The notes under the pieces were generated by a model. That model was not told the DNA's origin, did not search any database, and saw only the letters and a program-made list of their open reading frames with translations. 25,847 nt of DNA from a virus. The DNA lies in the IMG/VR virus record IMGVR_UViG_3300037502_001622, positions 1-25,847 of that record. One strand, written 5' to 3'. Below are positions 1,821 to 24,015 of the stretch, one piece after another. The position numbers were made by a program, and so were the translations under genes. The first letter of the stretch is position 1; each line of letters opens with the position of its first letter.

Positions 1821-4706
1821 ATGTCTAACCAGACCGCGAATACCCAAACGACCAACTTTGTACCGGTTCAGGGGACGTTTGAGCCCCTCTACCCGTACAA
1901 CATAATTTCGTTCATTGGGCCAGCAGGGTTGCCGTTTTACGCCCCCGTGAACCCCAATCTGGACGGGGTGACGATCACAAACAGCACGATCAATAGCTCC
2001 ACCATCGGTCTGACTACCCCTGCGGCGGCGGCGTTTACCTCTGCGTCCTCAACTAGCCAGCCAATCGGTAACAACGACCTGACCAATAAGCTCTATGTGG
2101 ACTCCCTAGCTCTAGGGATCTCATGGAAGCAGCCGGTCATAGCCGCTACCACGGGAAATATCACGCTCTCTGGCACGCAGACAATTGACACCGTTCCGGT
2201 TCTTGCTGGCGAGAGAGTGCTGGTTAAAAACCAGACAAACGACTACGAAAACGGCATTTATATCGCTGCGGCTGGCCCGTGGTCGCGCTCACCTGACGCG
2301 AACTCTTGGGATGAGCTGGTCTCTGCCCTAGTGTTTGTGACCGAGGGCGGTTTAGCTGGGTCTGCTTGGTATTGCACCGCACAGCCCGGAGGCACTCTTG
2401 GGGTTACTGCGGTCAACTGGAATAACTTCTCAGTTGGTGGCGTGTACTTTGCCGGTACAGGGTTAACCCTAACTTCTGGTGACACATTTAACATAGCAAA
2501 CACCGCAGTCACCCCTGCAACTTATGGCTCTGGTTCTGCCGTAGCTACATTTACCGTTAACCAGCAGGGCCAACTGACGGCGGCAAGCAACACCAATATC
2601 GCTATTGCGGCCTCCCAGATTACCTCTGGAACCATTGATACTGCGCGGATTTCTGGCTCATATACAGGCATTACGGCGGTCGGAACCCTGTCCGCTTTGA
2701 CGGTCAGCTCAACGATTACTGGATCAATTTCTGGTAACGCCGCGACCGCAACGACTGCGACCAACGCAACAACGGCTACAAACCTAGCTGGCGGGGCCAC
2801 AGGGAGCGTTCCGTATCAGTCCGGGGCTGGGGCAACCACCTTTGTTGGCATCGGCTCTACGGGTCAGGTTTTGACCGTTGCGGGTGGTGTACCGACATGG
2901 GCAACGCCAACGACCTATGGTGACGTAAGTGGCCCAGCATCGTCCACGGATAACGCAATTGCGCGGTTTGATAGCACGACCGGCAAGATTATCCAAAACT
3001 CAGGGATCACCCTTTCTGACGCAAACGCCTTACAAAACGTCAACGAGATCAACTTTGACATCACGCCTACGAGCGTGGTCGGCGGTGCGGGCTCGCTGTC
3101 TTGGAATAGTGATGACAACGCCAAGACCTTGCAATTAATTGGAAACAACAACGTAGAAATTGAGCTTGGAGAAGAAAACTACTACCGGATCAAGGCCACA
3201 GCCACGATAAGCAAGGGTCAGGTCTTGATGCTCACCGGAACGGTTGGAGCGTCTGGCGGTCTTACGGCTGCACCGGCTACCGGTCTAACGGCGGCTACGG
3301 GTAGCTACATTATCGGCCTAGCCAAAGAGTCCGGGGTAACAAACGATTGGATCTACGTTCAAGAGTTTGGCGAGGTCAAGGGAATCGACACCAGCGGGTC
3401 AAGTGCGGGTGAGACTTGGGCCAACGGAGACATCCTCTACTACAACCCTGCGGTCACAGGCGGTCTTACAAAAAACGTACCAGCAGCTCCAAATGCCAAA
3501 GTTCAGGTAGCTGCGGTCACATACGCAGACTCAACAAACGGAATCCTTTTTGTTCGCCCGACCTTTGAGCCACGGCTAAACGACCTATCAAACGTCTACA
3601 CGCCTACCCCATCGGACGGCGATGTAATCGTCTGGGATAACACGGACGGACGCTGGGAAAACCGGGCTCAGTCAACCCTGACTGCGGGCAAGGCAACGAA
3701 CCTAGCAGGGGGTGCAACAGGGTCGCTACCGTATCAGTCTGCGGCTGACACGACCACGTTCTTAGCTGCGGGCTCTGACGGTCAGGTTCTAAAACTGGCC
3801 TCTGGGGTTCCAACTTGGTCAAGCGATGTCTCTGGCGTGACGATTACAGACGATACAACGACCAACGCTACGCGGTACATCACGTTTTCAAACGTAACGA
3901 CCGGCAACGAAACCACGTTAGACGTATCGTCTACCAAGCTCCAATTTAACCCGTCAACAGGTGTTCTAACATCAACAGGGTTTTCAGGTGCGTTAAACGG
4001 AACTGTTGGGGCTACAACCCCAACAACCGGAGCATTTACCACCGTTAACGGTCTGACCATTTCCAACAGTACGGGAACCTTGACCATTACCAATGGCAAG
4101 ACTCTGTCTGCAAGCAATACGCTGACCCTTGCGGGTACTGATAGCACGACCATGACGTTCCCATCGACCAGCCAAACAATAGCTGGTTTAGGGTTAGCTC
4201 AGACATTTACCGCAGCCCAGACATTTAGAGCTGCAAACGCTATCCGGTCTGAGGCGGCAAGCACACAAGACGCAATCGTAATTGCTGGTCGTGCTGGGGG
4301 TACATCTTCTTACGCATTGACCGTAACCCCAGCAACTCTAGGCGCAAGTAGAACAGTAACTTTACCCGATCCCGGCGCAAACTATACGGTTGGATTTAGA
4401 AATATCCCTCAGTCAGGGTCAGACAAAACAAGCTCATACACATTAACTGTTGATGACATCGGTGAGTTTGTTGGCGTGGGAACTGGCGGGTCGATTACGA
4501 TTCCTAACTCAACCTTTGCGGCTGGTGACGCGGTCTCAATCTTCAATAATACGACCGGCAACATTACGATTACCTGTTCGATTACCACGGCCTACATTGC
4601 GGGAACTGATACAGACAAGGCTACCGTGACCCTTGCAACTAGGGGCGTGTGTACCGTGTTATTTATCTCTGGGACGGTCTGCGTACTGACAGGGAATGTG
4701 TCGTGA
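1821..4706 (+). CDS. Large tail fibre / receptor-binding protein
   Basis: 961 residues, ATG 1821 preceded by AAGGATTCACC. Ser/Thr/Ala/Gly-rich and almost Cys-free, as expected of a trimeric fibre. Around residues 86-205 lies a segment with LTNKLYVDS, GISWKQPV, QTIDTVPVLAGERVLVKNQT, ENGIY and WSRSPDA, a domain I know from many phage fibre proteins. Two 40-residue units beginning NLAGGATGS and ending GVPTW occur at residues 321-360 and 627-666. DVSGPASSTDNAIARFDST (residue ~368 on) is another common fibre repeat. The C-terminal ~100 residues (DDIGEFVGVGTGGSITIP and beyond) look like a beta tip domain. The next gene starts within its stop codon (GTGA overlap at 4703). Confidence 0.82.
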   Translation: MSNQTANTQTTNFVPVQGTFEPLYPYNIISFIGPAGLPFYAPVNPNLDGVTITNSTINSSTIGLTTPAAAAFTSASSTSQPIGNNDLTNKLYVDSLALGISWKQPVIAATTGNITLSGTQTIDTVPVLAGERVLVKNQTNDYENGIYIAAAGPWSRSPDANSWDELVSALVFVTEGGLAGSAWYCTAQPGGTLGVTAVNWNNFSVGGVYFAGTGLTLTSGDTFNIANTAVTPATYGSGSAVATFTVNQQGQLTAASNTNIAIAASQITSGTIDTARISGSYTGITAVGTLSALTVSSTITGSISGNAATATTATNATTATNLAGGATGSVPYQSGAGATTFVGIGSTGQVLTVAGGVPTWATPTTYGDVSGPASSTDNAIARFDSTTGKIIQNSGITLSDANALQNVNEINFDITPTSVVGGAGSLSWNSDDNAKTLQLIGNNNVEIELGEENYYRIKATATISKGQVLMLTGTVGASGGLTAAPATGLTAATGSYIIGLAKESGVTNDWIYVQEFGEVKGIDTSGSSAGETWANGDILYYNPAVTGGLTKNVPAAPNAKVQVAAVTYADSTNGILFVRPTFEPRLNDLSNVYTPTPSDGDVIVWDNTDGRWENRAQSTLTAGKATNLAGGATGSLPYQSAADTTTFLAAGSDGQVLKLASGVPTWSSDVSGVTITDDTTTNATRYITFSNVTTGNETTLDVSSTKLQFNPSTGVLTSTGFSGALNGTVGATTPTTGAFTTVNGLTISNSTGTLTITNGKTLSASNTLTLAGTDSTTMTFPSTSQTIAGLGLAQTFTAAQTFRAANAIRSEAASTQDAIVIAGRAGGTSSYALTVTPATLGASRTVTLPDPGANYTVGFRNIPQSGSDKTSSYTLTVDDIGEFVGVGTGGSITIPNSTFAAGDAVSIFNNTTGNITITCSITTAYIAGTDTDKATVTLATRGVCTVLFISGTVCVLTGNVS
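2781..2900 (+). repeat. Fibre repeat unit, copy 1
   Basis: This codes for 40 residues starting NLAGGATGSVPYQSG and ending GGVPTW in the fibre at 1821. The same-length unit recurs at 3699-3818 with most residues kept (Val/Leu and Thr/Leu type changes). The two are in the same frame and 918 bases apart. It is probably one structural repeat of the fibre shaft. Confidence 0.75.
3699..3818 (+). repeat. Fibre repeat unit, copy 2
   Basis: This codes for 40 residues starting NLAGGATGSLPYQSA and ending SGVPTW, the partner of the unit at 2781-2900. The DNA has drifted more than the protein, so the duplication is old or is held by selection on structure. Confidence 0.75.
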
Positions 4707-22660: not shown

Positions 22661-22690
22661 ATCATAGAACGATTAGTAAACTGTTTGCAA
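22661..22690 (-). promoter_or_regulatory. Leftward early promoter
   Basis: Minus strand: -35 TTGCAA (22685-22690), 18-base spacer, -10 TATGAT (22661-22666). Predicted transcription start near 22654 and ATG at 22618. The AAACAGTTT box lies at the -35 end of the spacer, where a repressor or activator could bind. It should drive the whole recombination operon down to 19114. Confidence 0.65.
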
Positions 22691-22691
22691 T
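22678..22691. repeat. Inverted 14-base element, left copy
   Basis: AAACTGTTTGCAAT on the plus strand is the exact reverse complement of ATTGCAAACAGTTT at 23125-23138. Each copy places TTGCAA at a -35 position pointing outward. The AAAC-N-GTTT core is itself a short dyad. Confidence 0.8.
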
Positions 22692-22755: not shown

Positions 22756-22783
22756 TTGGACGGTATTGGAAACCGTATACAAT
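22756..22783 (+). promoter_or_regulatory. Possible promoter of the candidate RNA
   Basis: -35-like TTGGAC (22756-22761), 16-base spacer, -10 TACAAT (22778-22783; five of six consensus bases). Start of transcription would be near 22790, just before the structured RNA. The -35 is weak. Confidence 0.4.
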
Positions 22784-22789
22784 TTCGTG

Positions 22790-22910
22790 GTCGGAAGTGA
22801 CGCTCTGGCATTGTGGTCTAGGATAAAGAACCCCTTAGTGAGGGCTTGTTGCCATCGTTCCTAGACCCGATGCTGGCCTGTCAAGCCCAAGTCCTCACTT
22901 AGGGGTTTTT
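22790..22910 (+). ncRNA. Candidate structured small RNA with predicted pseudoknot
   Basis: The segment has no ORF and ends as a terminator would. Stem AACCCCT/AGGGGTT (829-835 with 901-907, counted from 22000) continues after one T-T mismatch as AGTGAGG/CCTCACT (837-843 with 893-899). GCTTG/CAAGC follows after a 6-base 3' bulge, then CATCG/CGATG (853-857 with 868-872) closing a 10-base loop. TTTTT (906-910) follows the lower stem. The loop contains TCCTAGACC (859-867), exactly complementary to GGTCTAGGA upstream (815-823), so a pseudoknot or a switch between two folds is possible. It does not resemble any RNA family I know well. Confidence 0.5.
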
Positions 22911-23124
22911 CCATTTCCGGCTGCGCGAAACGCCAGCTAAGTCTAAAAGGCGGGGATGGGATAGAGGCCGTGGAATAAGTAGCCACGGAGCCGGGGTCGA
23001 CACCCGCTATATCCGTTCAGAAGTGGGCACGGCTACCTGATAGAGCGTTGTTACGCAATACATCTCCGTGTAAGTCTGGCAAAAACCTGTTTTTGCTAGT
23101 TGGTCGGTCTTTGGGCCTTTAGGG
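22911..23124. other. Non-coding region with several hairpins, role unknown
   Basis: No credible gene. Structures include GCTG-c-GCG/CGC-CAGC (22920-22937, AAA loop). A possible three-way junction at 22959-23014 has GGATA/TATCC closing CCGTGG/CCACGG (22968-22973 with 22983-22988) and CGGG/CCCG with a 7-base loop (22992-23006). A competing pair is GCCGTG (22967-22972) with CACGGC (23028-23033). Others are GCGT-tgtt-ACGC (23045-23056) and GCAAAAAC/GTTTTTGC (23079-23096). It lies upstream of the rightward promoter. It may be an origin, a second RNA or regulator sites; the sequence alone does not decide. Confidence 0.4.
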
Positions 23125-23138
23125 ATTGCAAACAGTTT
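23125..23138. repeat. Inverted 14-base element, right copy
   Basis: ATTGCAAACAGTTT, exact reverse complement of 22678-22691. The flanking bases are not shared, so the identity is confined to the -35/operator element. Confidence 0.8.
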
Positions 23139-23154
23139 CTAAAACAGATAATCT
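23126..23154 (+). promoter_or_regulatory. Rightward early promoter
   Basis: -35 TTGCAA (23126-23131). The -10 is either GATAAT (23147-23152, 15-base spacer) or TAATCT (23149-23154, 17-base spacer). ATG of the first gene at 23173 with CGGAG just before, so the leader would be very short. The AACAGTTT box sits right after the -35, as at the leftward promoter. Confidence 0.6.
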
Positions 23155-23376: not shown

Positions 23377-23642
23377 CCCGCGAGGACATTGAGAACCTAG
23401 CTTTGGGAGTGGGAATGATTCGCACCCAAGGAGACCTGATTAAACCCCTGTGGACGGCCTCAGACGCTCAACTGGGTAAGCTGGTTGAGACCGTGGTTGC
23501 CGAGGTCAAGCAAAGCGCCTCAGAGTACGTTGTGCGGGCGATTAAGAAGGCCGTGGAGTACGAGAGAGCCGAGTGCGCCAAACTTGCGGGGTATGTGAGC
23601 AAGGAAGCCGCCAAGTCAATACGGGAGCGTGAGAATGACTGA
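23373..23642 (+). CDS. Small helical hypothetical early protein
   Basis: 89 residues, ATGA-coupled. It is helical throughout: IENLALGVGMIRTQGDLIKPLWTASDAQLGKLVETVVAEVKQ, then AIKKAVEYERAECAKLAGYVSKEAAKSIRERE. The ERAECAKLA segment parallels the REACARE segment of the gene before it. This type of protein is common upstream of phage replication genes without a known activity. The next gene starts eight bases before its stop. Confidence 0.6.
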   Translation: MTREDIENLALGVGMIRTQGDLIKPLWTASDAQLGKLVETVVAEVKQSASEYVVRAIKKAVEYERAECAKLAGYVSKEAAKSIREREND

Positions 23643-24015
23643 CTTTGAGACGTTCTGGAAGGCTTACCCCAAAAAGGTAGCCAAGGGTGACGCGAGGAAG
23701 GCTTGGAAGCAGACCGACCAGATCCGTCCAGAGTTGGGCGAGTTGATAGAAGCCATAGAAGCTCAATGCCGGTCAGACCAATGGCGTAAGAATGATGGTC
23801 AGTTCATTCCCTACCCTGCGACATGGCTACGCCAAGAGAGGTGGTCTGACGAGCTGAAGGTTACTTTGCCGGGGGTAGTCCAAGGCAAAGAGTGGCACGA
23901 GACTTGGGCAGGGATACAGGCCAAAGGCCGAGAGCTGGGCATCGATGAGAGCCAGTTCACCCACCCGCAAGACTTTAAGAGCGCGGTCATGCGCGGATCG
24001 GTCAAGGTTGCATGA
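23635..24015 (+). CDS. Replication-associated protein of the FWxAYP type
   Basis: 126 residues from ATG 23635; an in-frame GTG two codons upstream is possible but lies further into the previous gene. MTDFETFWKAYPKKVAKGDARKAWKQT, EAIEAQCRSDQW and GQFIPYPATWLRQERW are the helical block that forms the C-terminus of many phage and plasmid replication-initiator proteins (for example lambda O-type or DnaT-like proteins). Here it is the whole protein with a short C-terminal extension and no separate N-terminal DNA-binding domain. It is probably a small replication or loader protein. ATGA coupling to the next gene. Confidence 0.68.
   Translation: MTDFETFWKAYPKKVAKGDARKAWKQTDQIRPELGELIEAIEAQCRSDQWRKNDGQFIPYPATWLRQERWSDELKVTLPGVVQGKEWHETWAGIQAKGRELGIDESQFTHPQDFKSAVMRGSVKVA

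Follow-up and report, generated by a model that had tools for sequence, protein, structure and literature searches.

Sequence comparison indicates that an intergenic element of about 121 nt, here named RNA1, is a previously uncatalogued RNA family that is common to many environmental phages. Computation shows it to be a conserved family encoded on the + strand, with a promoter, a terminator, four helices, and a hypervariable, self-complementary pair of segments termed A and A′. From its predicted folds and its position, we consider it about an even chance (probability ~0.5) that RNA1 acts as a phage transcription attenuator upstream of replication genes, while also accumulating as a small RNA of ~120 nt. 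A preliminary description of the locus had proposed a new structured RNA of this length with a terminator-type end, a proposal borne out by the predicted promoter and terminator and by strong covariation among relatives.

Identification of RNA1 and its relatives

The window, i.e. the whole stretch of DNA that was analysed, is a 25.8-kb virus record, with an Erf-like recombinase gene on its left arm and a gene for a replication-initiation-like protein on its right arm. RNA1 (22790–22910, + strand) extends from the 5′ base of its first helix, P1, to the U run of the terminator, as delimited by alignments A1 and A2 and by pair counts. It is preceded by a sigma70-like promoter (22756–22783, +), recognised from sequence and composed of TTGGAC (22756–22761), a 16-nt spacer and TACAAT (22778–22783), of which the −10 element had been noticed before. 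In relatives, a TTGAAC-type −35 and a TATNNT −10 keep a fixed position directly 5′ of the first base of RNA1. Likewise present is the previously reported hairpin stem ending in five T; it is a 23-nt inverted repeat (22826–22848/22888–22910) that is 87% complementary and has TTTTT at its end. The + strand at RNA1 contains no open reading frame of at least 60 amino acids, in agreement with the view that it codes for no protein.

Two protein queries led to 160 related viral loci, the intergenic element being found in about 50 of them. An exact pattern taken from the 3′ core (TGCTGGCCTGTCAAGCCCAAG) matched 92 IMG/VR stretches, and a pattern from a diverged form matched 97; the patterns fixed parts of P4 for type A, and parts of P1 and its loop for type B. 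Together, the relatives comprise 67 distinct type A RNAs and 57 distinct RNAs of type B, a diverged form built to the same plan. Homology of the two types is probable, since the best matches of the type A covariance model outside type A fall at the corresponding site in type B loci, with scores of 24.3 down to 11 bits (E 0.009–10, mostly 0.01–0.5). All RNA1 relatives are metagenomic contigs, some of which are possibly chimeric (L198 and L015, for example).

The novelty suggested in the preliminary description is supported by Rfam 15, in which the window has no match at the gathering threshold; at E ≤ 5 the window drew only sub-threshold eukaryotic or viral families, none of them credible, and a scan of 30 relatives gave no match on RNA1. 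Covariance model R1 matches the RNA1 of the window at 120 bits, and found no match in 399 genomes of one bacterial order; model R2 gave three weak matches in the same genomes, which are probably due to chance. Searches of cultured phages, plasmids and GTDB genomes did not reveal RNA1, and no description of it was found in the literature. In a set of more distant phages (L152–L160), with a replication protein that is ~60% identical, RNA1 was not seen in the loci examined.

Helices and the hypervariable A/A′ pairing

In type A, the parts of RNA1 follow the order P1, linker, A, P2 (which ends in U), P3 and P4. The P1 hairpin (22790–22809, +) pairs GUCGG with (C)UGGC and carries a conserved UGAC(R) in its loop (22798–22802); its 5 bp are 100% paired in the 67 type A sequences, with two-sided changes at three of the five pairs. 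P2 is a stem of 17–18 bp with an A-U/G-U base, 98% paired, whose 5′ arm (22826–22847, +) is the left arm of the terminator. Its 3′ arm and U tract (22889–22910, +) complete the predicted intrinsic terminator, as judged from the inverted repeat, the alignment and pair counts. The outer part of P2 is 98% paired over the 67 type A RNAs, and eight of its 12 pairs show two-sided changes. P3 (22853–22872, +), formed by CAUCG (22853–22857) and CGAUG (22868–22872), holds A′ in its loop; its 5 bp are 98.5% paired in type A versus 64% when shuffled, and its forms alternate between relatives (CAUCG/CGAUG versus GCACx/yGUGC). P4 (22875–22887, +) is a 3-bp hairpin, GGC-CUGUCAA-GCC, the loop of which pairs with the P1 loop in an alternative fold. 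This match between loops reads UGAC/GUCA in type A and UGGC/GCCA in type B.

At 22815–22823 (+), GGTCTAGGA is the exact 9-nt complement of TCCTAGACC at 22859–22867 (+), with 35 nt separating them; these are the variable segments A (GGUCUAGGA) and A′ (UCCUAGACC), the partnership of which was assigned from complementarity, permutation and pair counts. The loop complement noted earlier therefore exists, and the 9-bp complementarity recurs in 66 of the 67 distinct type A relatives from IMG/VR phages. Both sides change at all eight scored pairs, giving 242 two-sided change cells over the 67 RNAs. The percentage of A/A′ paired is biased, because the register was picked by best helix, a bias from which the permutation test and the fixed-alignment count are free. 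For 62 distinct variable-region pairs, the self-pairing sum was 1459.5, versus 741 (sd 24.5) with permuted partners (z ~29), and none of 10,000 permutations of A/A′ partners reached 845. Over 29 aligned sequences, 99.4% of cells were paired in the proposed structure, against 93.8% in shuffled and 31–50% in slid versions, with a covariation score of 0.194 versus 0.092. In type B, self-pairing of A/A′ lay beyond 5,000 permutations in each of three subgroups. Across homologous phages, covariation is very strong, and uncompensated change is seen in just one or two sequences, as befits the structured RNA first described.

A is the most variable part of RNA1, with 52 different sequences among 67 RNAs, and one identical P2 accompanies 15 different A/A′ codes. 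Among phage pairs with at least 90% flank identity over at least 1.2 kb, A differs in 42 of 44, and in 15 of those 42 the scored backbone of RNA1 is unchanged. An A/A′ duplex is predicted at −16.0 kcal/mol when the partner is self, compared to −6.7 with other members. A/A′ changes far faster than the other helices, a pattern suggestive of diversifying selection or of the exchange of cassettes.

Two alternative folds

Two folds are predicted for RNA1. State 1 consists of P1, the terminator P2, P3 and P4. State 2 (22798–22883, +) is an antiterminator-like hairpin that pairs the P1 loop with the P4 loop, the P1 3′ strand and linker with the P3 3′ strand, and A with A′, leaving the 5′ arm of P2 in its loop. 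In the window these helices are UGACG/UGUCA (22798–22802/22879–22883), then CUGGCAUUG/CGAUGCUGG (22805–22813/22868–22876), then A/A′ (22815–22823/22859–22867). When the window RNA was folded as a growing transcript, one long nested hairpin was the minimum free energy (MFE) structure until the 3′ arm of P2 was complete, and at full length the terminator fold was best (−46.1 versus −44.4).

This behaviour extends to the relatives. In type A RNAs lacking the P2 3′ arm, A/A′ was part of the MFE structure in 66 of 67, compared to 12% for controls with shuffled A, and shortened type B transcripts formed the nested State 2 in 43 of 57 (control, 2%). At full length, 55 of 57 type B RNAs had the terminator stem in their MFE structure, as did only 39 of 67 of type A. 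The two states of full-length type A are near each other in energy, the fold with P1 and the terminator being the more stable by 4 kcal/mol on average (mean −50.2 versus −46.3 kcal/mol for State 2), with 47 of the 67 within 5; the energy calculations took no account of pseudoknots or kinetics, and P2 is long and stable. In type A, none of 5,000 permutations gave a lower State 2 helix as good as that formed with the proper partner, since the linker varies to suit the P3 form that each RNA has (CAU/AUG or CAC/GUG). This lower helix is nearly invariant over much of its length, and since parts of the loops were in addition fixed by the search patterns, covariation in all these parts rests on few changes.

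The pseudoknot of the preliminary description is thus retained in part: its two pairing segments are real, while a static pseudoknot is less supported, as the same segments pair in a nested fold that competes with the terminator. A static pseudoknot was demoted as the main reading once this nested alternative appeared in the growing-transcript folds; A/A′ need not form one, because the pairing fits inside the longer nested hairpin. The best reading of these models is that A/A′ would be mainly the upper part of an antiterminator, a pseudoknot being possible; this is favoured because the nested State 2 occurs in both types and because the match between P1 and P4 loops is kept. The mutually exclusive antiterminator and terminator folds expected of an attenuator are accordingly present as predicted structures.

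RNA2 and the replication genes

A second structured RNA, RNA2, lies 3′ of RNA1 and in the window is of the W type (22921–23099, +), as defined by alignment A4 and a consensus fold. The W type is highly conserved, and six of the 52 pairs in its consensus have two-sided changes. In the window, RNA2 has no Rfam match, RF02932 included. Elsewhere the RNA2 slot is occupied by RF02932 (nine loci), a ‘C’ type, a GCCGGUGCAAAUCCG-motif type, an L085 type, an L209 type, and others. RNA2 variants 3′ of RNA1 in five loci carry GCCGGTGCAAATCCG, which we take to resemble the core of the cobalamin riboswitch; four of these loci (all except L219) had no Rfam match at the gathering threshold. L085, which in other respects is a near relative of the window phage, has at 3701–4480 a different RNA2 and then directly an open reading frame with an HNH-like motif, and in three further loci RNA1 and RNA2 are separated by a small open reading frame that seems to have been inserted close to the RNA2 5′ end.

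RF02932 (Betaproteobacteria-1 RNA) is a neighbour of RNA1 rather than RNA1 itself, filling the RNA2 slot in many related phages; in genomes of Burkholderiales it lacks an accompanying RNA1, none being seen upstream. In these genomes (L341–L353) it lies mostly directly 3′ of a TOPRIM/primase-like gene, and its conserved sequence runs well beyond Rfam’s 120 positions. A betaproteobacterial host for the phages is only suggested by this occurrence in Burkholderiales. The orphan RF02932 hereby gains a context, being one of several RNAs that replace one another 5′ of replication genes in phages.

Downstream of RNA1 in the window is the replication-initiation-like gene (phrog_270; 23629–24015, +). 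In 15 relatives, a phrog_270-like gene starts 218–403 nt 3′ of RNA1 on the same strand, and 11 of these 15 phages have no sigma70-like site between the two. The right operon of the window has a putative promoter of its own (23126–23152, +; TTGCAA ... GATAAT) after RNA2, so in this lineage read-through from RNA1 need not be the only source of its transcription. In addition, a perfect 14-nt inverted repeat (AAACTGTTTGCAAT at 22678–22691 and ATTGCAAACAGTTT at 23125–23138) supplies the −35 elements of two promoter-like sites, which face outwards on either side of the RNA1–RNA2 region, and these repeats are probably paired operators.

Proposed mechanism

In the attenuator model, State 2 would form first on the emerging RNA, with polymerase reading on into RNA2 and the replication genes, and State 1 would terminate transcription. 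Less certainly, finished RNA1 would expose unpaired A and A′, and could bind A′ or A of nascent RNA1 from the same phage; such binding in trans would block State 2 and favour termination. This trans action is suggested by the self-complementarity and diversification of A/A′. Replication would thereby be braked in a dosage-sensitive and self-specific manner, which would account for the diversifying A/A′ amid a constant remainder. Among the functions offered in the preliminary description, a two-state switch and a replication-control RNA appear to fit best, going by the predicted folds and by position.

More tentatively, RNA1 may be a self/non-self recognition RNA in phages that mostly lack an integrase, an extension we regard as possible and would not yet favour. 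Each lineage would have its own A/A′ code, with dozens circulating, and the terminated RNA would recognise nascent RNA with its own code and no other, shutting down transcription of replication genes. If true, replication control and co-infection incompatibility would be exerted via a self-complementary attenuator, itself coupled to exchangeable large structured RNAs. As a family, RNA1 is widespread among phages and varies most in a helix, both strands of which are replaced from one close relative to the next. If the attenuator model is true, RNA alone may be enough for abundant uncultured phages to meter replication or exclude it, and the family would supply numerous orthogonal switches of natural origin.

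Alternative explanations

RNA1 could instead be a stand-alone small RNA with one stable fold, in which a real A/A′ pseudoknot forms beside P2, the P1 and P4 loops kiss, and the whole serves in protein binding or as a scaffold. The possession of its own promoter and terminator suits such an RNA, and P1, P2, P3, P4 and A/A′ do coexist in a consistent pair set; however, as few as 0–4 nt may separate A from P2, a distance that fits poorly with the position of A′ at the opposite end of P2 (18 bp), and a pseudoknot does not require the complementarity seen between the linker on the 5′ side of A and the 3′ strand of P3. A/A′ would then vary because only pairing matters, through escape from a host factor, or by avoiding mispairing with the RNA1 of other phages, yet neutral drift leaves unexplained why A/A′ changes far faster than P2. 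We consider this explanation unlikely. Another candidate is a trans-acting antisense or immunity RNA in the style of P4 CI or P1 c4, with A′ targeting other transcripts or superinfecting relatives, and A being only a decoy or processing partner. It draws on the precedents of c4-like RNAs, which vary only in the 7–11-nt a′ loop that gives target specificity (PMC5320573), and of P4 CI RNA, which pairs with the upstream seqA of its own transcript and brings the transcription of replication genes to a halt (PMC4825925). Against this, neither A nor A′ recurred consistently beyond RNA1 itself in 54 phage loci, and the window gave no covariance-model match to the three-stem core of c4 antisense RNA (RF01695) at either gathering or permissive thresholds. 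Moreover, a tyrosine integrase was found in just one of 24 long contigs, and its absence in the other 23 makes lysogenic immunity unlikely for most. We consider this reading unlikely as well.

That the element acts as DNA, as a cruciform or origin hairpin read by the replication initiator, would accord with its intergenic position beside replication genes. The helices contain 216 G.U cells versus 8 A.C cells, and selection therefore acts on the + strand RNA, as the U tract and the positioned promoter also argue; the cruciform or origin reading was rejected on the G.U evidence, and its probability is very low. An ordinary strong terminator with chance complementarity would be in keeping with single-sequence folding of the window element, which is just mildly to moderately unusual (z = −2.5), but it is contradicted by all the comparative tests, with chance complementarity refuted by the permutation tests, and can practically be dismissed.

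Comparison with known systems

Among structured phage RNAs, GOLLD and ROOL are noncoding, of unknown function, and have loop-loop contacts (PMC12286853); unlike these, RNA1 is about 120–178 nt and without an Rfam match. RNA1 resembles c4 of P1/P7-like phages, a small phage RNA with a constant frame and a variable specificity loop. It differs from c4 in helix layout and in having no Rfam match, and whereas c4 is made by RNase P processing, at GGW, and has ant mRNA as its target, RNA1 has its own promoter and terminator. In P4 immunity, premature termination switches off replication genes, and the CI RNA complements an upstream segment of the same transcript (PMC4825925), as A′ does A in RNA1. 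Unlike P4, the 54 RNA1 loci are without a third, downstream copy equivalent to seqC, an intrinsic terminator is part of RNA1, most of the phages have no integrase, and no sequence relation was found.

The repC/repR leaders of plasmids pT181 and pIP501 control replication through antisense-controlled transcription attenuation, the specificity of which gives incompatibility (PMC5703833). Their antisense RNA comes from the opposite strand, in contrast to RNA1, where A/A′ lies within one transcript; a consensus scan, a weak kind of test, found no promoter-like site on the opposite strand inside RNA1, and the sequences are unrelated. As in RNA1, these leaders precede a replication initiator and have mutually exclusive pre-emptor and terminator folds, pairing deciding termination in the plasmids (PMC5703833). 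The leader position before a replication initiator gene is shared by the 15 relatives described above, and two-sided rewriting of a helix, seldom so clean as in RNA1, is what would be expected of a specificity code like that of plasmid incompatibility RNAs.
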